Of a DNA stretch of 64,000 nucleotides, positions 22,613 through 37,066 are shown piece after piece (position 1 is the first letter of the stretch; every line of letters begins with the position of its first letter). Source of the DNA: Actinomycetota bacterium (GTDB taxonomy: Bacteria; Actinomycetota; Thermoleophilia; Gaiellales; F1-60-MAGs149); the NCBI GenBank assembly GCA_026392355.1, contig JAPLCF010000043.1:62001-126000 (forward strand), in the 5' to 3' direction. The position numbers and the translations under genes were made by a program. Below the pieces are notes generated by a model. That model saw only the letters and a program-made list of their open reading frames with translations, was not told where the DNA came from and searched no databases.

Positions 22613-24457
22613 TTAGCCAGCGGTTCCGCGTCGCACGATGCGCGTGTCGCCCGTGCGGCGGGTAATGCCGTCTGCGTCCATACGTTCGAGCAGCGCCTGC
22701 ACCACCTTGCGCGATGAGTCGGTGGCATCGCGCACCTGCGCGAGCGTCACCTCACCGCCAGTGGCGCACAACTCGCGGACGATCCGGACTGCGTCGGCGT
22801 AGGCCGCTCCGCTGACGGCGATGCCGTCGGGCAACCGGGCGATCCGGCCACTTCGATCGAGTTGCGCGAGCACGGCCCAGGCGTCGTCCGTTGGCAGTGC
22901 GAGCTGCTCGACCAGCTCGGATTGGCGATGCGTGGCGAAGGGCTCCGCGTCGAGCTGGGCGAGGATGTCTGCGGCGACCGCCAGGTCGGCGTCGCTGGCG
23001 CCGGTGCCCGCCAGTCGCACGGTGGCGCCATCTCGCTCCAGCACGCCGTCCTGAAGGAGCTGCTCGAGCAGGGCATCGCGCCATGGCGTCTCTTTGAGCA
23101 GCGCGCCCATCGGCACCGACGGATCCAGCGGATGTTCAATCGCGCGCGTCGACAGGCGCGACTCGATCGCGGCGCGGATCGCCTCGTAGCGCGAGCGCGC
23201 CACGTGCCACTCGCCGAACACGAGGGTGTCTGGCGTCGCGGCGAGCGCGGATGCCGCCGCGTCTGGCTCGAGGAGTCCGCGAGTCGCCACGTCGTCGGCG
23301 CGTACCGCACCCTCGCGCAGCATCGCTCCGACGATGGCGGCGGCATCGCCGGTGGCGAAGGTGCGCAGCCGAGCCACGTCGGCGTCACTACCGGCGTGGC
23401 GGCGGGGCCGGGGATCGAGGATCGTGGCACCCGCGATGGTTCCCGGCGGGGCGAGGCGGCGCAGCACCACGCGGTCTCCACGGAGCGCGGCGAGCGGTTC
23501 GGTCAGGCGCAACTGGAAGAACCCGCTGTCACCGAGCTGCACGGCCTTGGCGTGCGCGATGGCAGTGCCGTGCAGCACCTCAATCGGCTCGCCGCGGCGT
23601 GGTGCCTCAGCGCCAGCAAGGACCGCGAGTTCGACGTCGAGGCGGTACGACGGCGCGGCAGGCAGGCCCGTCCACAGGACGGCGCCCGGAGGCACCTCGT
23701 CACGTTCGATACCGACCAGCGCAGCCGCCACGCGACTACCGGCGCCGGCCTGCTCCGTGTCCTCGCCGTGGACCTGCAGCGAGCGCATGCGCGCCTCGCG
23801 ACCTGACGGTTCGATGGTCACGGTGGTGCCCGGGGCGAGTGTTCCGGACCAGAGTGTGCCGGTCACGACGGTGCCGATGCCGTGCAAGGTGAACGAGCGA
23901 TCAACGGGTAGACGGGCACGTCCGCCACCACTGCGCGATGGCGTTTCGGCAGCAGCAGTTCGCAGTGCCGTCAGGAGGTCCTCAAGACCGGTCCCGGTCG
24001 GGGCGGAAACCGGGACAATTGCCGCGTCGGGGAACGGTGTGGCTGCGAGCGCAGCACGCACCTCCTCCGCAGCGGCGACACGACGCGCGTCGTCGACGAG
24101 GTCGGCTTTCGTCAGCGCGACGACGGCATGGCGGACGCCGAGCAGGGCCAGGATCGCGAGGTGCTCGGTGGTCTGCGGCATCACGCCGTCGTCTGCCGCG
24201 ACGCAGATCAACGCCAGATCGATGCCGGTCGCGCCCCCGACCATCGTGCGGACGAAGCGTTCGTGGCCGGGCACGTCCACGACGCTGAGGCGCAGGTCGT
24301 CACTCAGGGCGAGGTCTGCGTAGCCGAGCACGATCGAGATGCCGCGACGGTGCTCCTCCTCGAGCCGGTCGGTGTCCGTGCCGGTGAGCGTGCGCACCAG
24401 CGTCGTCTTGCCGTGGTCGACGTGGCCGGCGGTACCGAGCGTGAGGTGGCGTGTCAT
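22613..24457 (-). CDS. selB: Selenocysteine-specific elongation factor
   Basis: 614 residues. The GTPase domain has [17 protein letters not shown] (G1), [15 protein letters not shown] (G3) and LTKADL (G4), without the EF-Tu insertions, followed by two EF-Tu-like beta barrels and four winged-helix domains in the C-terminal 250 residues that read the SECIS hairpin. The ending [27 protein letters not shown] is a typical winged helix. The start overlaps the selA stop (ATGA). Together they imply selenocysteine use in this organism. Confidence 0.93.
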
Positions 24458-25797
24458 CGGCAGGCGTTGACGCGCGCGGCGACGGTTGCAACGTCCGCGT
24501 CGGCGAGCAGCGTGCGACAGTCGAGCAGCAGCTGCCCGTCTTCGAGACGTCCGAGGATCGCGGGCGTACCCGTACGCAGCGCCTCGTGCAGCGCGCCATC
24601 CTGATCAGGCAGGGCACAGGCGGCGCTCGGCAGGTCGATTGTCGGCAGCGCACCACCACCGATGCGCGCAGCCGATTCGACGACCTCGCCGCCCGTTGCC
24701 GCGGCAAGCTCTTCGGCGCGGCGACGCACATCGGCCAGCGGCATGCTGATCAAACGGCGGACCGGCACGGCGGTGCGGGCGCGGGCGGGATCGCCGTGCA
24801 GGCGCAGCGTCGCCTGCAGCGCAGCGAGGCTGAGGCGGTCGATGCGCAGGGCGCGGGCGAGCGGGTGCCGGCCGATCGTGTGCACGAGGTCGGCGCGGCC
24901 GGCGATCAGGCCCGCCTGCGGACCGCCCAGCAGCTTGTCGCCGGAGAACAGCACGACGTCGGCACCATCACCGACCGAGCCGCGCGCGTCGGGCTCGCCC
25001 GGCAGGTCCGGGTCGGGAGACAAGAGGCCCGAGCCGATGTCGTCGACGACGGGGACGCCATGCTCGCGACCGAGACGCGCGAGGTCGGCGGTCGCGACCT
25101 CCTCGGTGAAGCCCACGACCCGGAAGTTCGAGGGGTGGGCGCGCAGGATCAACGCCGTGTCGGGGCCGATCGCGGCGGCGTAGTCGTCTAGACGGGTGCG
25201 ATTGGTCGCGCCGACCTCGACGAGACGCGCACCGGCCTGCTCCATGATCGTCGGCAGGCGAAACCCGTCGCCGATTTCGATCATCTGCCCGCGCGACACG
25301 ATCACCTCGCGGCCACGAGCAAGAGCGGCGAGCGTCAGCACCAGCGCCCCGGCAGCGTTGTTGACTGCCATGCCGGATTCGGCACCCGTCAGGCGCGCGA
25401 TCAGCGGGCCGAGATGCGACTGGCGCGAGCCGCGCTGGCCGGTCGCCAGATCGAGCTCGAGGTCCGCGTAGCCGCCGGCGCTGGTGGTGATGGCCTCGAC
25501 GGCCTCGGGGGCCAGTGGCGAGCGACCGAGGTTGGTGTGGACGATGACGCCGGTGGCATTGATGACGGTGCGCAGCGGCTGCGCGTCGAGCGCGCGGGCG
25601 GTGGCCACGACGATCGCGGTCTCGGCCTCGCGGTCGGCAGCGGCGTCGGCTCCGTCCAGCAGTGCGGCACGGCGCGCGTCGAGCGCGCGGCGGACCAGAT
25701 CGGCCGCGCCAGCCTGTCCGAGCTCGTCGATCAGCGCCGCGCAGGCGGCGTCGTGTAGCACGTGCTCGACCGAGGGCAGTTGGCGCAGGGCCTCCAT
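24454..25797 (-). CDS. selA: L-seryl-tRNA(Sec) selenium transferase
   Basis: 447 residues from ATG 25797; the frame is open for another 790 bases upstream but that part overlaps the divergent GST gene and is not coding. It is a PLP enzyme: [17 protein letters not shown] near the N-terminus, [27 protein letters not shown], and the cofactor lysine in [13 protein letters not shown]. It converts Ser-tRNA(Sec) to Sec-tRNA(Sec) with selenophosphate. selD and the tRNA gene selC are not in this window. Confidence 0.93.
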
Positions 25798-25878
25798 GTG
25801 CCGAATGGTACGGGGAGTCGTCGTCCCGGCGAGCCGTCTCGCGCCTCGCGGGATATCTCTGATACCTTCACCGGCGCA

Positions 25879-26547
25879 ATGATTCATCTGTATCAGATCA
25901 CCGGTTCTTCGTCGTTTGCGGCTCGCGCTGCCCTTGAAGAGGCTGGTGCGGCGTACGAGGCGATCAACGTCCATCCGCGCAACCGCGACGTGATTCCGGG
26001 CTTTGCCGAGACGAACCCGCTGAAGCGCGTCCCGGCTCTGCACGACGGGGATGTGCGCGTCTACGAGACCGGTGCGGTCCTGCTCTACATCGCCGACCGC
26101 TTCCCGGAAGCCGGCCTGATTCCGCCGATCGGCGACCCGCGCCGCCCGGATGTCTACCGCTGGATCACGTGGACGGCCAACACACTGCATGGTGCGTGGT
26201 GGCCGCTGATGATGCCGTCGTTCCTCACGTCGGACGAGGCCGGTACCGACGGCATCCGCTCGAAGGGCCTCGGCGCCATGGCACAGCACGGCGCCTACCT
26301 CGACACGCAGCTTGAGGGCCGCGAGTGGTGCATCGGCGACCAGTTCACCATCGCCGACATCTACCTCTACATGCTCGTCGGCTGGCAGTCGTTCGTGGAC
26401 GACGTCCAGGTTGGCGGTGCCCCGATGCAGGAGCACTTCGCCCGCGTTGGCGCTCGTCCGGCCATCGCTCGTGCCCGCGAGCTCGACGACCTCAAGCCCG
26501 ACTTCATGCGCAACAACCCCGACATGCGGGGCGGCGAGAAGATCTAG
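25879..26547 (+). CDS. Glutathione S-transferase-like protein
   Basis: 222 residues from ATG 25879. Thioredoxin-like N-terminal domain (IHLYQITGSSSFAARAALEEAG, with ALHDGDVRVYETGAVLLYIAD for the gamma-Glu binding site) and an all-helical C-terminal domain (CIGDQFTIADIYLYMLVGW). These are the canonical GST landmarks. Actinobacteria of this type usually lack glutathione, so the thiol partner may differ. It is divergent from selA with an 81-base gap containing GATACCT about 11 bases before the start. A palindrome begins at its stop codon. Confidence 0.85.
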   Translation: MIHLYQITGSSSFAARAALEEAGAAYEAINVHPRNRDVIPGFAETNPLKRVPALHDGDVRVYETGAVLLYIADRFPEAGLIPPIGDPRRPDVYRWITWTANTLHGAWWPLMMPSFLTSDEAGTDGIRSKGLGAMAQHGAYLDTQLEGREWCIGDQFTIADIYLYMLVGWQSFVDDVQVGGAPMQEHFARVGARPAIARARELDDLKPDFMRNNPDMRGGEKI

Positions 26548-26613
26548 GACATTCTGGATCCGGATCCAAATTGTCCATTTGCGGGACAATTCGGATCCGG
26601 ATCCAAATTGTCC
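26547..26613. repeat. Pair of GGATCC-core palindromes between convergent genes
   Basis: Two 30-bp palindromes at 26547-26576 and 26584-26613 share the centre GGATCCGGATCC and the ends GGACA...TGTCC. The second is palindromic along its arms except for one pair near the core. They fill the gap between the stop codons of the GST and MoaD-MoaE genes. As RNA either strand folds into a hairpin, so they could terminate both genes. The same core recurs at 41312-41407, which suggests a family. Confidence 0.8.
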
Positions 26614-26616
26614 GCC

Positions 26617-27276
26617 TCAGGAGCCGCGTCCGACCCAGACGGCGCCGTCGGCGTAGACCTCGCGCTTCCAGATCGGAACGGACACCTTCAACTGCTCGAT
26701 GATCCACTGGGTCGCGGCGAGCGCGGACGGGCGGTGTCGTGAGGTCGAGACGATCACGACCGAGGCCTCGCCGGGCATGACGACACCGGTGCGGTGCACG
26801 ATCTCGACGGCCAGGAGCTCATGGTCCGCGGCGGCCTTCCGAGCGATGCGCTCAAGCTCTTCGACCGCCATCTCCTCGTAGGCCTCGTACTCGAGGCGCA
26901 CGACGTCCTTGCCGCGCGTCGCGTTGCGGACCGTGCCGGTGAAGGCGGCCTGCGCGCCTGCGCGCTCGTCGTTGGCGCGGGCGTGGGCGGCGGCGATATC
27001 GATCGGGTCGGCGCTGATGGCCACGCCGATGCGCGGCTCGTCCGAACCACCGGAGACGGGTGGAATCAGCGCGATCTCATCGCCCTCGCCGACAGGGGTC
27101 GAGGCGTCCGCGTACGTCCGGTTGATCGCGAAGGCGATGCCCGGCGGTTGCTCACCGAGGTCGAGCAGCGGCCAGACGTCGCCAGCCACGGCACCCGCGG
27201 GCAACTCGAGGACGGTCGAGCCGGTGCCTGCGCGCTCACGCAGGCCGGCGAACAGGCGGACGGTGACGCTCGGCAT
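26617..27276 (-). CDS. moaX: Fused MoaD-MoaE molybdopterin synthase
   Basis: 219 residues. Residues 1-77 are a MoaD (ubiquitin-like) domain that ends in the diagnostic PPVSGG, so the sulfur-carrying Gly-Gly (76-77) is internal. Residues 80-219 are MoaE: AQAAFTGTVRN, VRLEYEAYEEMAVEELERI, VVIVSTSRHRPSALAATQWIIEQLK and VPIWKREVYADG with the catalytic lysine. The enzyme adds two sulfurs to cPMP in molybdenum cofactor synthesis. In M. tuberculosis MoaX, a similar fusion, the MoaD part is released by cleavage after the Gly-Gly. It is divergent from the mutase gene. Confidence 0.9.
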   Translation of the reverse strand: MPSVTVRLFAGLRERAGTGSTVLELPAGAVAGDVWPLLDLGEQPPGIAFAINRTYADASTPVGEGDEIALIPPVSGGSDEPRIGVAISADPIDIAAAHARANDERAGAQAAFTGTVRNATRGKDVVRLEYEAYEEMAVEELERIARKAAADHELLAVEIVHRTGVVMPGEASVVIVSTSRHRPSALAATQWIIEQLKVSVPIWKREVYADGAVWVGRGS

Positions 27277-27329: not shown

Positions 27330-28889
27330 GTGAGCGACGATCAGGTGACGACCGAATCGGGCATTCCCGTGCCGCCCTTCTGCGAGGGCCCTGGCAGCGG
27401 CGCCATCGGCGACCCCGGGCAGTACCCGTACACCCGCGGCGTACGCGCCGACGGCTACCGCAGCCGCCCGTGGACGATGCGCCAGTACGCCGGCTTCGCC
27501 AGCGCCGAGGAGACGAACGAGCGCTTCCACCTGCTGCTCGAGCGTGGCCAGACCGGCCTGTCGACGGCCTTCGATTTGCCGACGCAGCTTGGCCTCGACT
27601 CCGACGATCCGAAGAGCCTCGGAGAGGTCGGTCGCACCGGTGTCGCGATCGACTCGGTCGAGGACATGGAGCGCCTCTTCAAGGGCATCCCGATGGGCGA
27701 GGCGTCGACGTCGATGACGATCAATGCGCCCGCTTCGGTGCTGCTCCTGCTGTACCAGCTGACGGGCGAGCGCCAGGGCGTCGCGCCGGAGCAGTTGAGC
27801 GGCACGATCCAGAACGACATCCTCAAGGAGTACGCGGCGCGCGGGAACTACATCTATCCGCCGCGCCCGTCGATGCGCCTGACGGTCGACACCATGGCCT
27901 ACGCCAAGGAGCACCTGCCGCGCTTCAACACGATCTCGATCTCCGGGTACCACATCCGTGAGGCCGGCTCGACGGCGGTGCAGGAGCTTGCGTTCACGCT
28001 CGCCAATGGCCTGGCCTACGTGCAGGCCGCGGTCGATGCTGGCCTCGACGTCGATGCGTTCGCGCCGCGCCTGTCCTTCTTCTTCAATGCGCACAACGAC
28101 GTCTTCCAAGAGGTCGCCAAGTTCCGTGCGGCACGCCGCATGTGGGCGCGCTTCATGGAGGAGCGTTTCGGCGCCAAGGACGAGCGCTCGAAGATGCTGC
28201 GCTTCCATGCGCAGACGGGCGGCTCCACGCTGACGGCGCAGCAGCCCGAGGTCAACCTGATCCGCGTGGCGCTGCAGGCGTTCTCGGCCACGGCTGGTGG
28301 CGCGCAGTCGCTGCACACCAACGGCTTCGACGAGGCGCTCGCGTTGCCGACGGAGCACGCCGCCACGCTCGCGCTGCGCACGCAGCAGGTGCTCGCGCAC
28401 GAGTCCGGGATCACCGCCACGGCCGATCCGTTTGGCGGCTCCTGGTACATCGAGGGCCTCACCGACGAGCTCGAGGCGCGTGCGCTCGAGCTGATCGACG
28501 AGATTGACAAGCTCGGTGGCAGCGTTGTCGCGACGGAGCAGGGCTTCATCCAGGACCAGATCGAGGACTCCGCCTACCGCTCGCTGCGCCGCCTCGAGAA
28601 CGGCGACGACATCGTCGTCGGCGTCAACAAGTACCGCAACGAGGAGGAGCCCGAGGTGCCGATCCATCGCATCGACGCGAGCCTCGAGCAGCAGCAGGTC
28701 GCGCGCACGCAGGCGCTGCGCGCCGCCCGCGATAGCGGCGCCGTTGAGTCGGCGCTCACCGCTGTCCGTGCCGCTGCCGACTCCGATACGAACCTGCTCC
28801 ATCCCATGAAGGACGCGCTCGCCGCCCACGCGACGGTCGGCGAGGTGTGTGGCGTCCTACGCGAGGCCTGGGGCACCCACGACCGCTGA
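27330..28889 (+). CDS. Methylmalonyl-CoA mutase, large (catalytic) subunit
   Basis: 519 residues: the TIM-barrel substrate domain only, without the C-terminal B12 domain, so a separate small B12-binding subunit is needed and is not in the window. Motifs: RPWTMRQYAGF, TSMTINAPA, NTISISGYHIREAGSTAVQE and DPFGGSWYIE. The Tyr in RQYAGF (residue 53) and the Arg in PSMR match the Tyr/Arg pair that favours methylmalonyl-CoA; isobutyryl-CoA mutases have Phe/Gln. It interconverts methylmalonyl-CoA and succinyl-CoA. It leads directly into the carboxylase genes that make methylmalonyl-CoA. Confidence 0.85.
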   Translation: MSDDQVTTESGIPVPPFCEGPGSGAIGDPGQYPYTRGVRADGYRSRPWTMRQYAGFASAEETNERFHLLLERGQTGLSTAFDLPTQLGLDSDDPKSLGEVGRTGVAIDSVEDMERLFKGIPMGEASTSMTINAPASVLLLLYQLTGERQGVAPEQLSGTIQNDILKEYAARGNYIYPPRPSMRLTVDTMAYAKEHLPRFNTISISGYHIREAGSTAVQELAFTLANGLAYVQAAVDAGLDVDAFAPRLSFFFNAHNDVFQEVAKFRAARRMWARFMEERFGAKDERSKMLRFHAQTGGSTLTAQQPEVNLIRVALQAFSATAGGAQSLHTNGFDEALALPTEHAATLALRTQQVLAHESGITATADPFGGSWYIEGLTDELEARALELIDEIDKLGGSVVATEQGFIQDQIEDSAYRSLRRLENGDDIVVGVNKYRNEEEPEVPIHRIDASLEQQQVARTQALRAARDSGAVESALTAVRAAADSDTNLLHPMKDALAAHATVGEVCGVLREAWGTHDR

Positions 28890-28940
28890 GTGACGCCCGG
28901 CGGGGTATTCTCCCGCCGTCCGAGAGGAAGACGAGATCCT

Positions 28941-30503
28941 GTGACCGACCGCCACGAAACCGGAACCACCGCCCAGCGCATTGCCCATCTTGAAGAGCTG
29001 CGTGCGCAGTCGGAGCATCTCGACCCCAAGGCCGAGGAGCGCCAGCGCGCGCGCGGCAAGGGCCTGGCGCGGGAGCGCATCGAGGCGCTGTTCGATCCCG
29101 GCACGTTCCGCGAGATCGACCGCTACGCCCAGCATCGCAACGCCGAGCTGGCCGACCGTCGCCCGTACGGCGACGGCGTCATCACCGGCCATGGCCTGAT
29201 CCACGGTCGCCGCGTCTTCGCGTTCTCGCAGGACTTCACCGTCTTTGGCGGCTCGCTCGGCGAGGTCTTCGCCGAGAAGATCTGCAAGGTGATGGATCTG
29301 GCGCTCCGCTACGGCTGCCCGATCATCGGCATCAACGACTCGGGTGGCGCCCGCATCCAGGAGGGCGTCGTGTCGCTCGGCGGCTATGCCGACATCTTCC
29401 AGCGCAACGTCGACGCCTCCGGTGTGATCCCGCAGATTTCGCTGATCATGGGACCCTGCGCCGGCGGCGCGGTCTACTCGCCGGCGATCACCGACTTCAT
29501 CTTGATGGTCCGCGAGACCTCGCACATGTTCATCACTGGGCCCGATGTGGTCCGTGCGGTGACGGGCGAAGAGGTCTCGATGGAGGAGCTCGGCGGCGCG
29601 GACGCGCACGCCGAGAAGAGCGGCGTCTGCCACCTCGTCTGCGAGGACGAGGCCGCGGCAATCGCGGATGCACGCGCGCTGATCTCCTTCCTTCCGCAGA
29701 ACAACCTCGACGCCGCACCGTGGGCGCCGACGGACGACCCGGCCGATCGCGAGTGCACCGAGCTCGACACGCTGATCCCGGATAGCCCGAACAAGCCGTA
29801 CGACATGCACGCCGTGATCCGCTCGATCACCGACGACGGGCTCTTCTTCGAGATCCAGCCGACGTACGCGATGAACATCCTGACCGGCTTCGCACGTCTC
29901 AACGGACACTCAATTGGCATCGTCGGCAACCAGCCGAGTCAGCTCGCCGGCGTGCTCGATATTGCTTCGTCGGAGAAGGCCGCGCGCTTCGTGCGCACCT
30001 GCGACGCCTTCGGCATCCCGATCCTCACGCTCGTCGACGTGCCGGGCTTCCTGCCGGGCACCGAGCAGGAGTGGGGCGGCATCATCCGCCACGGCGCGAA
30101 GCTGCTCTACGCCTACGGCGAAGCGACGGTGCCGAAGCTCACGCTGATCACGCGCAAGGCCTATGGCGGCGCGTACGACGTGATGGGCTCGAAGCACCTG
30201 CGCGCCGACGTCAACCTGGCGTGGCCGACGGCAGAGGTCGCCGTGATGGGCCCCGACGGCGCCGTCAACGTCGTCTACCGCAAGGAGCTTGCCGAGGCCG
30301 CCGATCCGGATGCGCGTCGCGCCGAGCTGATCGACGAGTACAAGGCGCGCTTCTCGAATCCGTTCACGGCCGCCGAGCGTGGCTTCGTCGACGACGTGAT
30401 CATTCCGCGCGAGTCGCGCCAGGCGCTGATCGACGCCCTCGAGGCCTCGCTCACCAAGCGCGTCGAGCGCCCCCGCCGCAAGCACGGGAACATCCCGCTG
30501 TGA
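28941..30503 (+). CDS. pccB: Propionyl-CoA carboxylase beta (carboxyltransferase) subunit
   Basis: 520 residues from GTG 28941. Crotonase-like carboxyltransferase with the two oxyanion-hole regions [20 protein letters not shown] and [16 protein letters not shown]. The Asp in GAYDVM is at the position where propionyl-CoA carboxylases have Asp and acetyl-CoA-preferring forms have Ile or Cys (known from Streptomyces PccB/AccB), so propionyl-CoA is the likely substrate. The stop overlaps the GTG of a 56-aa protein, which overlaps the biotin carboxylase start. Confidence 0.9.
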
Positions 30504-30670
30504 GTCACATCGACGAGCGCGACGAGGCCAAGGCCCGCGAGGAGCTCGCCATCGAGGCGGCGCTGCGCGTGGTGGAGCAGGACGGTCCGCTTGCCGGGCA
30601 TCCCGCCTATCGCTCGGCGTGGCGCCGTCAGGCCGCCCGCGAGCAGCTCGACAACGGGATGGACGCATGA
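30500..30670 (+). CDS. 56-aa protein between pccB and the biotin carboxylase gene
   Basis: GTG 30500 overlaps the pccB stop (GTGA) and its own TGA overlaps the ATG of the next gene (ATGA), so all three are coupled. The product is highly charged and helical: [19 protein letters not shown] then [17 protein letters not shown]. Position and size match the epsilon subunit that stabilises acyl-CoA carboxylases in Streptomyces and Mycobacterium, but I do not see convincing sequence similarity to it. A structural subunit role is inference from context. Confidence 0.65.
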
Positions 30671-32436
30671 GCACGCCTCCGTTCGACAAGATCCTCGTCG
30701 CCAACCGCGGCGAGATCGCGATTCGCGTCTTCCGCGCCTGCCGCGAGCTCGGCATTGGCACGGTCGCCGTCTACTCCGAGGCCGATGCCGGCGCGCCCCA
30801 TGTCCGCTACGCCGATGAGGCCGTGCTGTTGGGCGCTGCTGCGCCGAGCGAGAGCTACCTCAATATCCCCAAGCTGATCGACGCCGCCACGCGCACCGGT
30901 GCGCAGGCGATTCACCCGGGCTACGGCTTCCTCGCTGAGAGCGCGCCGTTTGCGACCGCCGTGATCGAGGCCGGTCTGACGTGGATCGGTCCGCCGCCGA
31001 GCGCGATCGACGCGATGGGCTCGAAGATCAACTCGCGCGTGCTGATGGCCGCGGCGAACGTGCCGATCGTGCCGGGCACGACGGAGGAGATCACCGATCC
31101 CGCGCGCGTGATCGAGCTCGGTGAGCAGTACGGCTGGCCGATCGCACTGAAGGCCTCGGCTGGTGGTGGCGGTCGTGGCCTCAAGGTCGTGCACGAGGCG
31201 TCGGAGGCCGAGCGTCTGCTCGAGGCCGCCAAGCGCGAGGGCGAGGCGTGGTTCGGCAACGGTGCCGTCTACGTCGAGAAGTACGTCGAGGATCCGCGCC
31301 ACGTCGAGATCCAGGTGATGGCCGACACGCTCGGTAACACGATTCATCTGGGCGAGCGCGACTGCACGCTGCAGCGCCGCCACCAGAAGATCGTCGAGGA
31401 GGCACCGTCGCCGGCCGTCGACGAGGACCTGCGCGCCCGCATGGGAGCAATGGCCGTCAACGCCGCCAAGGCTGTCGACTATGTCGGTGCCGGAACCGTC
31501 GAATGTCTGCTCGATCGCCATGGCGACTTCTACTTCCTCGAGATGAACACCCGCGTGCAGGTCGAGCATCCGGTCACCGAGCTGGTGACGGGCGTCGACA
31601 TCGTGCGCGAGCAGATCCTCGTCGCCGCGGGCAATCCGCTCTCGTACACGCAGGACGACATCGTGATGCGTGGGCACGCGATCGAGTGCCGTGTCAACGC
31701 CGAGGATCCGGGCAATGGCTTCACGCCGTCGCCGGGTAAGCTGCTTCGCCACCGCCCCCCGAGCGGCCCGGGTATCCGCGTCGAGTCCGGCGTGGAAGAG
31801 GGTGGCGAGATCAACGATCGCTACGACCCGATGGTCGCGAAGCTGCTCGTGTGGGACACCTCCCGTGAGCGCGCCATCGCCCGTATGCGCCGTGCGCTCG
31901 ACGAGTACGAGATCGTCGGTCCGAAGACGCTGCTGCCGATGCATCGCATCGTCATGCGCGCGCCGGAGTTTGCCGAAGGCCAGACGTGCGCGGGTCTTGT
32001 CGAGGGTGCGTGGGCCGATGCCTGCGCCGCACTCGCGGACGAGCCCGTCACCGCAGCACCTACGGCTGCCGGCGGCGTCACGATTCCGCGGCACGTGCCG
32101 GTTGAGGTCGAGGGGCGCCGCTACGACGTCGTGCTGCGCCTGCCCGCCTCTGCCGGTGCTGAGGAGGCGCGTGAGCGCATCCGCGCCCGCATGTCCGGCG
32201 GTGCCGGAGCGGCTGCCGAGGGTGCGATCGTCTCGCCGATGCAGGGCACGGTGCTGCAGCTCGAGGTCGCTGAGGGCGACACGGTCGAGGCGGGGCAGGT
32301 CGTGGCCGTTGTCGAGGCAATGAAGATGGAGAACGAGGTGCAGTCGCTGCACGCCGGTACCGTCGCCGCGGTGCACGTGCAGGCGGGCCAGGGCGTGCAG
32401 GCCGGGCAGACGCTGATCGAGCTCGAAGGGGCGTAG
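30667..32436 (+). CDS. Acyl-CoA carboxylase alpha subunit (biotin carboxylase + BCCP)
   Basis: 589 residues from ATG 30667. Biotin carboxylase: KILVANRGEIAIRVFRACRE, the ATP-grasp glycine loop KASAGGGGRGLKVV, EKYVEDPRHVEIQVM and EMNTRVQVEHPVTE. The BCCP domain closes the protein with the biotinyl lysine 554 in VEAMKMENEV. It carboxylates biotin with bicarbonate and ATP; the PccB subunit transfers the carboxyl to propionyl-CoA. A Pro/Ala-rich linker (about 455-480) joins the parts. In related actinobacteria such alpha subunits are shared by several beta subunits. Confidence 0.92.
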   Translation: MSTPPFDKILVANRGEIAIRVFRACRELGIGTVAVYSEADAGAPHVRYADEAVLLGAAAPSESYLNIPKLIDAATRTGAQAIHPGYGFLAESAPFATAVIEAGLTWIGPPPSAIDAMGSKINSRVLMAAANVPIVPGTTEEITDPARVIELGEQYGWPIALKASAGGGGRGLKVVHEASEAERLLEAAKREGEAWFGNGAVYVEKYVEDPRHVEIQVMADTLGNTIHLGERDCTLQRRHQKIVEEAPSPAVDEDLRARMGAMAVNAAKAVDYVGAGTVECLLDRHGDFYFLEMNTRVQVEHPVTELVTGVDIVREQILVAAGNPLSYTQDDIVMRGHAIECRVNAEDPGNGFTPSPGKLLRHRPPSGPGIRVESGVEEGGEINDRYDPMVAKLLVWDTSRERAIARMRRALDEYEIVGPKTLLPMHRIVMRAPEFAEGQTCAGLVEGAWADACAALADEPVTAAPTAAGGVTIPRHVPVEVEGRRYDVVLRLPASAGAEEARERIRARMSGGAGAAAEGAIVSPMQGTVLQLEVAEGDTVEAGQVVAVVEAMKMENEVQSLHAGTVAAVHVQAGQGVQAGQTLIELEGA

Positions 32437-32517
32437 GGAGCACACAACGCGCCCGGTTGTGGGGGCGGCGCACGACCGTCCCCGCTCGCTCATTCGCTTT
32501 CTGACGTCGAGGTTCCC

Positions 32518-32523
32518 TATAGT
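32518..32523 (+). promoter_or_regulatory. -10 box, leaderless start of the GntR-type gene
   Basis: TATAGT, the best match to the -10 consensus in this window, ends 9 bases before ATG 32533. The regulator thus has its own promoter in the 96-base gap after the carboxylase gene. Confidence 0.5.
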
Positions 32524-32532
32524 TCCGGCGCA

Positions 32533-33270
32533 ATGGCGCAGAACGACACCACCGTGTGGGACGACGAGCCCATGTTCGTGCGCGACGCCGTCTTCCAGCC
32601 GATCGACACGCCGACGGCCGTGGACGAGGTCGCGCGGCGCATCCGTCAGGCGATCGTGCTCGGCGTCTTGCGCGATGGTGACCGCCTGCCCGCCGAGACC
32701 GAACTGGCGAAGCGCATCGGTGTCGGCGTGATGACGGTGCGTGCCGCGCTGAGCGAGTTGCGTGCCGACGGACTGCTCGAGACGCACCGCGGCCGCCTTG
32801 GTGGTTCGTTCGTGGCGTCGAGCGACAAGGCGTTCCTCTCGGGCGTCCCCGCGACCGACCCCTCGCATCTGCGGCAACAGGCCGAGATCCTTGGCGGATT
32901 GGAAGCGCAGGCGGCGCGCCTGGCCGCCGCCTTGATCACCGACGAGGAGCTCGAGATCCTGGCCGAGTTGACTGCCGAGATGGGGCAATCGCACAATGCA
33001 GACGAGGTCGGCGTCATCAACAACCGCTTCCACCTGATGATCGCCGCTGCCTCCGGCAATCGCGACCTCGTCTCCGTGATCAGCCAGCGTCGCGCCGAGC
33101 TGTACTCGGCCGCCTACGCGCTGTCCGGGGTCAAGCTGCCGCTCCTGCTGGACGGCGATGCGCATCCTGGCATCGTTGAGGCGCTCGCTGCGCGTGACGG
33201 CGAGCTCGCCAGCGCCCGCATGTGGGAGCACCATCGAGTCACCATGGACGGCGTGCTCGACGCAATGTGA
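32533..33270 (+). CDS. GntR/FadR-subfamily transcriptional regulator
   Basis: 245 residues. Winged-helix domain at about 30-95 (AVDEVARRIRQAIVLGVLRDGDRLPAETELAKRIGVGVMTVRAALSELRADGLL, the usual GntR helix-turn-helix) and an FCD-type ligand domain: LEAQAARLAAALITDEELEIL, NNRFHLMIAAASGN and ARMWEHHRVTMD, with histidines that bind metal in the family. Such regulators usually sense a carboxylic acid or acyl-CoA. Its place between the propionyl-CoA genes and ETF-QO suggests control of this catabolic block, which is inference. Confidence 0.85.
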   Translation: MAQNDTTVWDDEPMFVRDAVFQPIDTPTAVDEVARRIRQAIVLGVLRDGDRLPAETELAKRIGVGVMTVRAALSELRADGLLETHRGRLGGSFVASSDKAFLSGVPATDPSHLRQQAEILGGLEAQAARLAAALITDEELEILAELTAEMGQSHNADEVGVINNRFHLMIAAASGNRDLVSVISQRRAELYSAAYALSGVKLPLLLDGDAHPGIVEALAARDGELASARMWEHHRVTMDGVLDAM

Positions 33271-33320
33271 GCGGGCGGCGTTCCGCCTCCTCACAGGCCG
33301 CCCGCGCTATCGTGCCGGGG

Positions 33321-35024
33321 ATGCCTACGCTCCCCAGTGATTTCCCGCCACCGTATGACCCTGCGGCCGCTGTAGACGCTCCGAACGCGCCGATCGACCT
33401 CCAGATCCCAGCCGGGGTCTGCATTGTCGGCGGCGGTGCGGCTGGTCTCGCCTGTGCCGTCAAGCTCGGCCAGCTCTTGGCCGACGATCCCGAGATCCTC
33501 GAGCAGCTCGGCGAGGTGCCGATCGTCGTGATCGAGAAGGGCAAGTCCATCGGCAGCCACTCGCTGTCCGGCGCGATGATGAACCCGCAGCCGCTGCGCG
33601 AGCTCTTCCCGGATCTCACTGACGACCAGCTGCCCACGTATGGCGCGGTCAACAAGGAGTCGGTCTACTTCATGACGTCGCGCAAGCGCGCGATCAAGTT
33701 GCCAACGCCGCCGGAGTTCCAGAACCACGGCAACCACGCAATCTCGCTGGCCACGCTCAACAAGTTCCTCGCCGAGCAGGCCGAGGCGCTCGGCGCCTAC
33801 GTGCTGCCCGAGACTGATGCGCAGACGCTCCTCGTCGAGAATGGCGCCGTGCGTGGCATCCGCACCGGCGTCAAGGGCCTCGATAAGGACGGCAACGAGA
33901 AGCCGGGCGCCGCACCCGCGACCGAGGTGCACGCCCAGGTGACCGTGCTCGCCGAGGGTGCGCAGGGCAAGCTGCGCGAGGCCGCGATGACGGCGTTCAA
34001 CGTGTCGAGTCCGTTTCCGCAGGTCTACGCCCTTGGCGTGAAGGAGCTGTGGAAGGTCCCGAAGAGCCTCGACCGCATCATCCACACGCTCGGTTGGCCG
34101 CTCCGTGGCGCTGCGCGCTACCGCGAGTTTGGCGGCTCCTGGCTCTATCCGATGGGTCCCGAGCACGTCTCGATGGGCATGGTCGTCGGCCTCGACTGGG
34201 CCGACTCGACGCTGAGCGTTCACGACCTGCTGCAGGAGCTCAAGCTCCATCCGCTCATCAAGAAGATCCTCGAAGGTGGCGAGCGCGTCGAGTGGGGCGC
34301 GAAGATCATCCCTGAGGGTGGCTATTACGCGATTCCCGATCAGCTCACGCTGCCGGGGGCCATGTTCGTCGGCGACTCGGCCGGCTTCGTCAACGTGCCG
34401 CGCCTCAAGGGCGTGCACTACGCGATCCAGTCGGGCATCCTCGCTGCGCAGGCGATCCACGCTGCGCTGAAGGCCGGCCACGACGTCACCCAGCCGGGCG
34501 CCCTAGCGGCCTACGACTCGGCGGTGCGCACGGGCAAGATCGGCCAGGACCTGTGGGAGGTGCGCAACTCGCGCCAGCAGTTCCAGCGCGGTCTCGTCGG
34601 TGGTGGCGCGGTTGCGCCGCTGATTACCCTCACCAAGGGGCGCTTCCCCTTCGGCGCGACGGCGTTCTCCGAAGACAGCCACCACGAGGTCGAGAACCTC
34701 AAGAGCGTCTACACGGAGCCCGATGGCCAGTACACCTTCGACAAGCTGTCGAGCGTGTTCCTGTCGGGTAACAAGACCCGCGACGACCAGCCGAACCACC
34801 TCCGTATTCATCAGCCGCGGGTGCCGAAGGTCCTTGCCGATGCGTGGGTCAACATGTGCCCCGCGCAGGTCTACGAAGTCGTTGAAGGCTCCGATTCCGG
34901 TGATGGCCTCGTGCGCGTGCACATGGATCCGTCGAACTGCGTGCAATGCGGGGCAATCACCGCCAAGGGCGGGCGCTTCACGCCACCCGAGGGCGGCAGC
35001 GGCCCCGAATACCAGAAGATGTAA
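33321..35024 (+). CDS. Electron transfer flavoprotein-ubiquinone oxidoreductase
   Basis: 567 residues from ATG 33321. FAD-binding CIVGGGAAGLACAVKL at residues 32-47, IEKGKSIGSHSLSGAMMNP, and LVGDSAGF-like FVGDSAGFVNVPRLKGVHYA. The C-terminal ferredoxin domain is the family mark (CPAQVYEV...PSNCVQC...PPEGGSGPEY). It passes electrons from ETF, charged by acyl-CoA dehydrogenases, to the quinone pool. Oddity: only three of four cluster cysteines are found (513, 540, 543); residue 546, where the CxxCxxC motif needs the next Cys, is Ile. See findings. Confidence 0.88.
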   Translation: MPTLPSDFPPPYDPAAAVDAPNAPIDLQIPAGVCIVGGGAAGLACAVKLGQLLADDPEILEQLGEVPIVVIEKGKSIGSHSLSGAMMNPQPLRELFPDLTDDQLPTYGAVNKESVYFMTSRKRAIKLPTPPEFQNHGNHAISLATLNKFLAEQAEALGAYVLPETDAQTLLVENGAVRGIRTGVKGLDKDGNEKPGAAPATEVHAQVTVLAEGAQGKLREAAMTAFNVSSPFPQVYALGVKELWKVPKSLDRIIHTLGWPLRGAARYREFGGSWLYPMGPEHVSMGMVVGLDWADSTLSVHDLLQELKLHPLIKKILEGGERVEWGAKIIPEGGYYAIPDQLTLPGAMFVGDSAGFVNVPRLKGVHYAIQSGILAAQAIHAALKAGHDVTQPGALAAYDSAVRTGKIGQDLWEVRNSRQQFQRGLVGGGAVAPLITLTKGRFPFGATAFSEDSHHEVENLKSVYTEPDGQYTFDKLSSVFLSGNKTRDDQPNHLRIHQPRVPKVLADAWVNMCPAQVYEVVEGSDSGDGLVRVHMDPSNCVQCGAITAKGGRFTPPEGGSGPEYQKM

Positions 35025-35039
35025 CGAGGAGCAGTCTCC

Positions 35040-36188
35040 ATGGATCTCTATGAGCACCAGGGCAAGGAGCTGTTCGCGAAGGCGGGTATTCCCGTCGCAG
35101 CTGGCTACGTCGCCTACACCGTCGATGAGGCGCGCGCCGCCGCCGAGAAGCTCGGTGGGGTCGTCGTGGTCAAGAGCCAGGTGCTCGTGGGCGGCCGCGG
35201 CAAGGTTGGTGGCGTCAAGGTCGTCAAGGACCCTGCCTCGGCAGCGGAAGCGGCCGAGGCGATCCTCGGGCTCGACATCAAGGGCCACATCACGCGACGC
35301 CTGTACATCGAGGCGGGCGTGAAGATCGCCAAGGAGTACTACTTCTCCGTCACGTTCGATCGCTCGGCCAAGATGCCGCTGCTGATGCTCACGACGATGG
35401 GCGGCATGGACGTTGAGGACGTCGCGGCGAACCATCCCGACAAGCTGGCCCGGCTGCATGTTGATCCGGCGCTCGGCTACCGCGGCTTCCATGGTGTGCA
35501 GCTGATGAGCGAGGCCGGTATCCCGGTCGAGGAGCGCAAGGCGCTCGCGCCGATGCTCGCCGCGCTATACGGCGTGTTCCAGCAGGACGACGCCATGCTC
35601 GTCGAGGTCAACCCGCTCGTGCTGCTCGAAGACGACACGTTCCTCGCGGCCGATGCCAAGGTGACGATCGACGACAACGCGCTCTTCCGCCATCCCGACA
35701 TCGAGGCCATGCGCGATCTCGCCGCCATGGACCCGCAGGAGCAGGCGGCCCGCGAGCACCATCTCGCCTACGTGAAGCTCGACGGCGACGTCGGCATCCT
35801 CGGCAACGGCGCCGGTCTCGTGATGAGCACCGTTGACGTGATTGCCCAGGCAGGCGGTCGTCCGGCCAACTTCTTGGACGTTGGCGGCGGTGCCAGCGCG
35901 GAGAAGATCACGACGGCGCTCGAGATCGTGCTGAGCAACGACAAGGTCAACAGCGTGCTGTTCAACATCTTCGGGGGCATCACGCGCTGCGACGAGGTCG
36001 CCAAGGGCCTGCTCGGCGCGCTGGATGCCACGACGATCACCGCGCCGATCGTGGTGCGCCTCGACGGCACCAACGCCGAGGAGGGACGCGCGCTGCTCGC
36101 CGAGGCGGCGCGCCCCGAGATCACCGTCGAGAAGACGATGCTCGAGGCCGCGGCCACCGCCGTCCGCCTCGCAAAGGAAGCGAGCTAG
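35040..36188 (+). CDS. sucC: Succinyl-CoA synthetase beta subunit
   Basis: 382 residues from ATG 35040, 15 bases after the ETF-QO stop, with AACGAGGAG upstream as ribosome-binding site. ATP-grasp domain with VVKSQVLVGGRGKVGGVKV and the metal-binding VEVNPLVLLEDD; the C-terminal CoA-ligase domain has FLDVGGGASAEKI and NIFGGITRCDEVAKG. It forms ATP or GTP from succinyl-CoA with SucD. Placed after the propionyl-CoA genes it would take the succinyl-CoA made by the mutase. Confidence 0.95.
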   Translation: MDLYEHQGKELFAKAGIPVAAGYVAYTVDEARAAAEKLGGVVVVKSQVLVGGRGKVGGVKVVKDPASAAEAAEAILGLDIKGHITRRLYIEAGVKIAKEYYFSVTFDRSAKMPLLMLTTMGGMDVEDVAANHPDKLARLHVDPALGYRGFHGVQLMSEAGIPVEERKALAPMLAALYGVFQQDDAMLVEVNPLVLLEDDTFLAADAKVTIDDNALFRHPDIEAMRDLAAMDPQEQAAREHHLAYVKLDGDVGILGNGAGLVMSTVDVIAQAGGRPANFLDVGGGASAEKITTALEIVLSNDKVNSVLFNIFGGITRCDEVAKGLLGALDATTITAPIVVRLDGTNAEEGRALLAEAARPEITVEKTMLEAAATAVRLAKEAS

Positions 36189-36190
36189 TC

Positions 36191-37066
36191 ATGGCCATCA
36201 TCGCCACCAAGGACACGCGCCTGGTCGTGCAGGGCATTACCGGTCGTGAGGGCACGTTCCACGCGCTGCGCAATCGCGACTACGGCACTAACGTCGTTGC
36301 CGGCGTCACGCCCGGCCGCGCGGGCCAGAACGTCGAGGGCATTCCGGTCTTCGACTCTGTCGCCGATGCCGTCGCCGAGCAGGGTGCCAACACCTCGCTC
36401 ATCCTCGTCCCACCGCGCTTTGCCGCCGAGGCGATCCTCGAGGCCGCCGAGGCCGGCGTGGAGCAGATCATCTGCATTACCGAGGGCATTCCCGCCCACG
36501 AGATGCTCGAGGTCTACCACTACATCCGCCCTCGCGGTATCCGCCTGCTCGGGCCGAATTGCCCCGGCGCGCTCTCGCCCGGCATCGCCAACGTCGGCAT
36601 CATCCCGGCCGAGGTCTTCAAGCAGGGTCCGATCGGCCTGATGTCGCGCTCCGGCACGCTCACGTACCAGATCGGTGGCGAACTGGCGGCTAAGGGCCTC
36701 GGCAACTCGACGATCATCGGCCTCGGTGGCGATCCGATCGTCGGCACGTCGTTCATCGACGGGCTCGACATGTTCCAGGCCGACGACCAGACCGAGTACA
36801 TCGTGATGGTCGGTGAGATCGGTGGCAATGAGGAGGAGAAGGCGGCCGAGGTGATCGCCGAGCGCATCACCAAGCCCGTTGTCGCCTACATCGCCGGCTT
36901 CGAGGCTCCTCCGGGCAAGACGATGGGACACGCGGGTGCGATTATCTCCGGCTCGGCGGGCACGGCTGCAGCCAAGAAGGAGGCGCTCGAGGCCAAGGGC
37001 GTTCGCGTCGGGACGAATCCGACCGAGGCTGCGCAGCTGATGGCCGACCTCGTCACCAAGGGCTGA
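36191..37066 (+). CDS. sucD: Succinyl-CoA synthetase alpha subunit
   Basis: 291 residues, starting 2 bases after sucC. The CoA-binding fold has VVQGITGREGTFHAL and VTPGRAGQNVEGIPVFDSV. The phosphohistidine is in GKTMGHAGAIISGSAGTA, and LLGPNCPGALSPG and GDPIVGTSFID are further family marks. Length is normal for the subunit. Confidence 0.95.
   Translation: MAIIATKDTRLVVQGITGREGTFHALRNRDYGTNVVAGVTPGRAGQNVEGIPVFDSVADAVAEQGANTSLILVPPRFAAEAILEAAEAGVEQIICITEGIPAHEMLEVYHYIRPRGIRLLGPNCPGALSPGIANVGIIPAEVFKQGPIGLMSRSGTLTYQIGGELAAKGLGNSTIIGLGGDPIVGTSFIDGLDMFQADDQTEYIVMVGEIGGNEEEKAAEVIAERITKPVVAYIAGFEAPPGKTMGHAGAIISGSAGTAAAKKEALEAKGVRVGTNPTEAAQLMADLVTKG

Follow-up and report, generated by a model that had tools for sequence, protein, structure and literature searches.

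ETF-quinone oxidoreductase (ETF-QO) delivers electrons released in the catabolism of fatty acids and amino acids to the quinone pool. Its iron-sulfur cluster is classically a [4Fe-4S] centre held by four cysteines, all of which are visible in the pig enzyme (2gmh) when it is aligned to the protein described below. In pig ETF-QO, hydrogen bonds from the Tyr in CPAGVY and the Thr in CKTC raise the potential of the cluster.

Other described systems can be compared with this enzyme. In EtfABCX, EtfX (FixX; 7koe_D) is a separate subunit carrying two [4Fe-4S] clusters, according to the available text of PMC10734219, and its partner FixC/EtfC has no fused Fe-S domain. Mycobacterial EtfD, an ETF:menaquinone oxidoreductase with the same expected role, also has a replaced cysteine: the available part of PMC13083937 describes a linear [3Fe-4S] cluster with Thr at the Cys site of heterodisulfide reductase, in a heme-containing membrane protein that is not homologous to ETF-QO. 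In [3Fe-4S] ferredoxins (CXX?XXC...CP) and in fumarate reductase FrdB, the ferredoxin-type site has three cysteines (PMC6237146 and PMC1459171, in the text available). We describe here an ETF-QO in which the cluster site likewise has three cysteines. It is a real, conserved variant with a likely ordinary role and an unusual cluster ligation, undescribed as far as our searches reach; we found no published description of a three-cysteine ETF-QO, an absence that carries little weight since subscription journals were little covered.

An ETF-QO with three of the four cluster cysteines

The window (the whole stretch of 64,000 nucleotides analysed) carries on its forward strand a 567-aa frame at 33321..35024, with an ATG at 33321, a stop codon at 35022-35024 and no internal stop. 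The encoded protein matches the ubiquinone-binding domain PF21162 (83.8 bits, gathering cut-off 27.7) and the Fe-S domain PF05187 (58 bits, gathering cut-off 24), and its best solved relative is pig ETF-QO 2gmh, detected by phmmer with an E-value of 8.6e-91 over residues 31-566. An AlphaFold2 model computed from 48 sequences reached a mean pLDDT of 88.4 and a pTM of 0.92, with pLDDT of only 52-76 over residues 541-567 and 62-67 over residues 481-500. After trimming of the stretches with pLDDT below 60, residues 12-567 of the model aligned with residues 14-584 of 2gmh (Z 43.4, rmsd 2.4, 529 aligned residues, TM 0.86), and ETF-QO homology and fold were found over the chain by phmmer and structure comparison, respectively. 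EtfC (7koe_C) matched the FAD part of the model with a Z of 33.0. The protein falls outside the FixC/EtfC family, scoring 80.2 bits against an NCBIfam FixC model whose cut-off is 610, and in contrast to FixC/EtfC its Fe-S domain is fused.

This C-terminal Fe-S domain (residues 466-567, 34716..35021, + strand) aligned with residues 476-583 of 2gmh at an E-value of 1.2e-12 and with PF05187 over residues 469-565; when searched on its own, it retrieved 2gmh, all further matches being reductases with E-values of 0.18 or higher. Aligned to the tail of the pig enzyme, which has the fourth cysteine, the window protein (NCVQCGAITAKGGRFTPPEGG) keeps on the + strand the CPA cysteine, Cys513 (TGC, 34857..34859), and the first two cysteines of CxxCxxC, Cys540 (TGC, 34938..34940) and Cys543 (TGC, 34947..34949), whereas the third is replaced by Ile546 (ATC, 34956..34958, + strand), at a site that is Cys in 11 of 11 canonical proteins compared. 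The initial annotation had named the protein an ETF-QO with these four residues and had counted only three canonical cluster cysteines. Its residue numbers and codons are all correct, and the 2gmh alignment confirms its count; its description of the tail as otherwise normal, however, does not hold, as CKTC of 2gmh reads CGAI in the window protein (Gly-Ala for Lys-Thr), DIKDP is not conserved and the loop preceding PPEGG lacks four residues.

With the pig (2gmh/2gmj) and proteobacterial (L226-L230) enzymes, the window protein shares the chain homology, the ubiquinone-binding and Fe-S domains and the motifs CPAxVYE, NCxxC and P(E/Q)GGxGPxY; it differs from both in having CxxCxxI for CxxCxxC, in the Gly-Ala pair and in the shortened loop. 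Since it possesses three of the four cysteines that characterize ETF-QO, we file it as a variant subfamily and not as a member of canonical ETF-QO, to whose 11 representatives it is 34-39% identical. Homology-based annotation assigns to such proteins a [4Fe-4S] cluster that their residues do not support.

Distribution and phylogeny of the CxxCxxI tail

The spread of the CxxCxxI tail was investigated by whole-genome searches with the full protein, so that the matches were not selected by their tail, in overlapping sets of 41 relatives, 150 genomes of the class and 197 of the phylum, and in three additional phylum-level groups (25, 57 and 46 genomes). Tails were counted by genome, using only matches reaching the C-terminus and leaving out nine genomes from records picked by their tail. 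The C-terminus was reached in 148 genomes, with CxxCxxI in 142, CxxCxxC in six, and no other tail or co-occurrence of both. In Thermoleophilia, the class of the window, 121 genomes carried CxxCxxI and five CxxCxxC (126 in total). The three further groups, which were a non-random choice as they entered through tail-picked records (depositor names Calditrichaeota, Desulfobacterota and Deltaproteobacteria), had CxxCxxI in 2/2, 7/7 and 12/13 genomes, the exception being CxxCxxC; the nine genomes left out all carried CxxCxxI. Within the genus the same tail was found in all nine genomes where the C-terminus was reached, the match in G007 ending before it and G002 and G008 having no match. Among the matches listed outside the class in the phylum search, none reaches the C-terminus and the best is FixC-like (E 8.1e-30). 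Additionally, a contig scan with patterns including NCVQCGAI yielded 80 loci kept of 403 confirmed relatives (L073-L152), which inform on the occurrence of the type but not on its frequency and were excluded from the tail counts. One further locus, L197 (G467), has a single in-frame TAG inside an otherwise whole ETF-QO frame.

As judged from these sequences, the CxxCxxI ETF-QO is an old, widespread branch found in Thermoleophilia and three more phylum-level groups. The initial annotation had asked whether the Ile is conserved in the lineage, which the counts in Thermoleophilia establish; the five CxxCxxC genomes among the 126 of the class have a different, canonical ETF-QO. In a tree of 59 proteins computed without the Fe-S domain, all 40 CxxCxxI proteins fell on one side of a branch with SH-aLRT 100, and the same split was supported at 99/99 in a more careful tree, likewise without the Fe-S domain, of 43 of the 59 proteins, the 16 omitted including the long-branch L203. 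The protein thus belongs to a deep, clade-wide subfamily, which the initial annotation had not noted, nor had it noted the four-residue deletion or that the CKTC motif loses its Thr. The quick tree placed the three-cysteine type beside plasmid (proteobacterial) forms (SH-aLRT 82), whereas the careful tree left this fork open, so that the series of losses has no firm root. Given that EtfX and all 11 canonical proteins have the fourth cysteine, its loss is likelier than its gain, although the outgroup is distant.

Six of the 11 CxxCxxC proteins compared (L058, L203 and L206-L209; five from Thermoleophilia, one from elsewhere) represent a second kind of ETF-QO. The C-terminal 120 residues of these proteins contain CxxCxxCD[VI]KDP and three extra cysteines before CPA, giving seven. 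A canonical-type tail from Thermoleophilia aligns with EtfX at E 1.2e-12, whereas the tail of the window protein gave no match to EtfX at E 5. In L206, the only member of this kind aligned to EtfX, the last cysteine of EtfX corresponds to Asp. In the seven-cysteine forms, Asp could possibly be a ligand of a second cluster or of the vestige of one, and their residues are suggestive of a position halfway between two-cluster EtfX and one-cluster ETF-QO. A stepwise loss of ligands can be tentatively drawn, although as a whole it is rather doubtful: an EtfX-like ferredoxin with two [4Fe-4S] clusters would have given rise to a fused form with three extra cysteines and Asp, then to the four-cysteine mitochondrial and proteobacterial form and, once, to a three-cysteine form with a native [3Fe-4S] cluster whose potential is set for menaquinone.

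Residues conserved in the three-cysteine type

Conservation was measured on 135 CxxCxxI proteins no shorter than 500 aa, each from a different unselected genome. Cys513, Cys540, Cys543, Pro514, Tyr518, Asn539 and Ala545 were invariant (135/135). The invariance of Ile546 (135/135) follows from the definition of the set, the telling point being that no third tail type was observed in the 148 genomes. None of the 135 proteins has gained a replacement cysteine, Cys45 being Cys in only 66 of them. No new His was found in the Fe-S domain either, as His493 is common to all 11 canonical proteins. Thr547 was rejected as a ligand because other proteins of the type have Ser, Asn or Gly at this position; the loop also varies at 548 (Ala, Ser, Asp or Phe) and 549 (Lys or Arg), and no invariant side chain capable of binding iron was detected over residues 544-552 in the 135 proteins.

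Several positions separate the two types. Asn484 and Thr/Ser486 are fixed in the three-cysteine type (135/135 each), where canonical proteins have Thr or Ala and His, respectively. Arg487 (132/135) is different in the 11 canonical proteins, and Asp488 (134/135) is mostly Glu in them. Outside the Fe-S domain, in the FAD/quinone part, His301 is present in 135/135 proteins of the type and in 5/11 canonical ones. Of the two residues that hydrogen-bond the cluster in the pig enzyme, the three-cysteine protein retains the Tyr but has Ala instead of the Thr, which would point to a lower cluster potential.

Probable binding of the cluster

The reading that we favour, at a probability of about one half, is that the window protein holds a native [3Fe-4S] cluster on three cysteines and feeds menaquinone; the sequence, the clade, the invariant residues, the predicted fold and the gene neighbourhood are direct results, whereas cluster binding, cluster type, electron path and acceptor are all inferred. 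The single cluster would be held by Cys513, Cys540 and Cys543, with Ile546 filling the corner that the fourth iron would otherwise take, and electrons would pass from acyl-CoA dehydrogenases to ETF, then to the cluster and FAD, and finally to menaquinone. Because the three cysteines never vary, a cluster is probably bound. On the L206-EtfX alignment, Cys540 and Cys543 correspond by count to C61 and C64 of EtfX, and the available text of PMC10734219 reports no intact complex with the C61A and C61A/C64A variants. Ferredoxins with one motif cysteine replaced contained [3Fe-4S] in every case isolated, with potentials from -340 to +230 mV, according to the accessible part of PMC6237146. Mycobacterial EtfD, with its Thr and its linear [3Fe-4S], is a second precedent (PMC13083937). 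It is to be noted that these ferredoxins lack the second, middle cysteine of CxxCxxC, as does FrdB (PMC6237146 and PMC1459171, in the portions available), whereas the window protein lacks the third, which counts against the parallel.

Possible, though less probable, is that a [4Fe-4S] cluster is kept in which something other than cysteine binds the fourth iron, either a side chain from another part of the protein or water/hydroxide as in site-differentiated clusters. The C29A variant of EtfX retained a [4Fe-4S] EPR signal with one cysteine missing and with partial non-Cys ligation (PMC10734219, available text). Asn484, Thr/Ser486 and Asp488, which are fixed in the three-cysteine type and differ in canonical proteins, would be candidate ligands, as would His301 despite its location in the FAD/quinone part; the loop itself, however, offers no invariant residue with iron-binding capacity. 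A protein that has lost its cluster and passes electrons directly from ETF to FAD is improbable: such a loss would fit the altered loop with its deletion of four residues, and also the decrease of the PF05187 score from 131 bits in the canonical protein of G048 to 42-62 bits in 10 genomes with the three-cysteine type, but a lost site would drift, whereas the three cysteines, Pro514, Tyr518 and Asn539 are fixed across several phylum-level groups. The initial annotation had proposed a 3Fe-4S cluster, another ligand or loss of the cluster; the first two remain candidates and loss is disfavoured. The annotation had also named a sequencing error as part of what would refute its reading. No support was found for such an error, for misassembly or for gene decay, even though the assembly is a 50-contig draft, and all three are ruled out by the identical tail type in relatives (9/9 genomes of the genus, 142/148 overall) and the uninterrupted frame.

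As a large branch in nature that lacks the fourth ligand, the three-cysteine type offers a ready means of testing what the ETF-QO cluster must do. With a native [3Fe-4S] cluster as the preferred reading, it bears on whether such a cluster can serve in this enzyme and on how its potential is matched to menaquinone, whose couple is given as -74 mV in PMC10734219.

Genomic context and quinone acceptor

The ETF-QO gene lies in a run of genes on the + strand (27330-37066) that looks like a module leading from propionyl-CoA to succinate. Upstream are genes for methylmalonyl-CoA mutase (27330..28889), a carboxyl transferase resembling propionyl-CoA carboxylase beta (28890..30503), a PccA-like biotin carboxylase with a biotinyl domain (30619..32436, start not settled) and a GntR/FCD regulator (32533..33270), and downstream are those for the SucC-like beta (35040..36188) and SucD-like alpha (36191..37066) subunits of succinyl-CoA ligase. 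In this genus, ETF-QO is thus embedded in a propionyl-CoA/succinate run, whereas in most related loci it is found next to ETF genes. Upstream sequence of 1 kb or more is included in 72 of the 80 tail-picked loci. In 51 of the 80, ETF-QO is preceded at no more than 600 bp by a same-strand ETF gene, judged EtfA-like from its size, and sucC is a neighbour in nine, L073-L081, which are the nearest relatives. The source genome has two ETF domains at C9:566065-567317, not adjacent to ETF-QO, and ETF domains were present in all 25 genomes tested. The upstream ETF genes, together with the alignment of model residues 12-567 to 2gmh, indicate that the window protein is very likely a working ETF-QO.

A menaquinone marker (PF02621 or menB) exceeded its cut-off in 37 of 39 genomes with the three-cysteine type, including the source genome; neither marker did so in G380 and G433, both of this type, and in G440. 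A recent survey finds ubiquinone pathways almost only in Pseudomonadota and one class of Desulfobacterota (PMC13386864, in the text available). On these two grounds, menaquinone is most likely the acceptor of the three-cysteine ETF-QO. Menaquinone use as the divider between the two types was rejected, as five of the six genomes with CxxCxxC proteins also have the markers; menaquinone alone therefore does not explain the cysteine change.

Elsewhere in the window, adjoining SelB-like and SelA-like genes on the - strand (22613-26589), the latter a long frame of 711 aa, represent selenocysteine machinery; tRNA genes were not detected anywhere in the 64 kb. Next to them, a single frame on the - strand (26620-27276) joins ThiS/MoaD-like and MoaE domains in a fused molybdopterin synthase.
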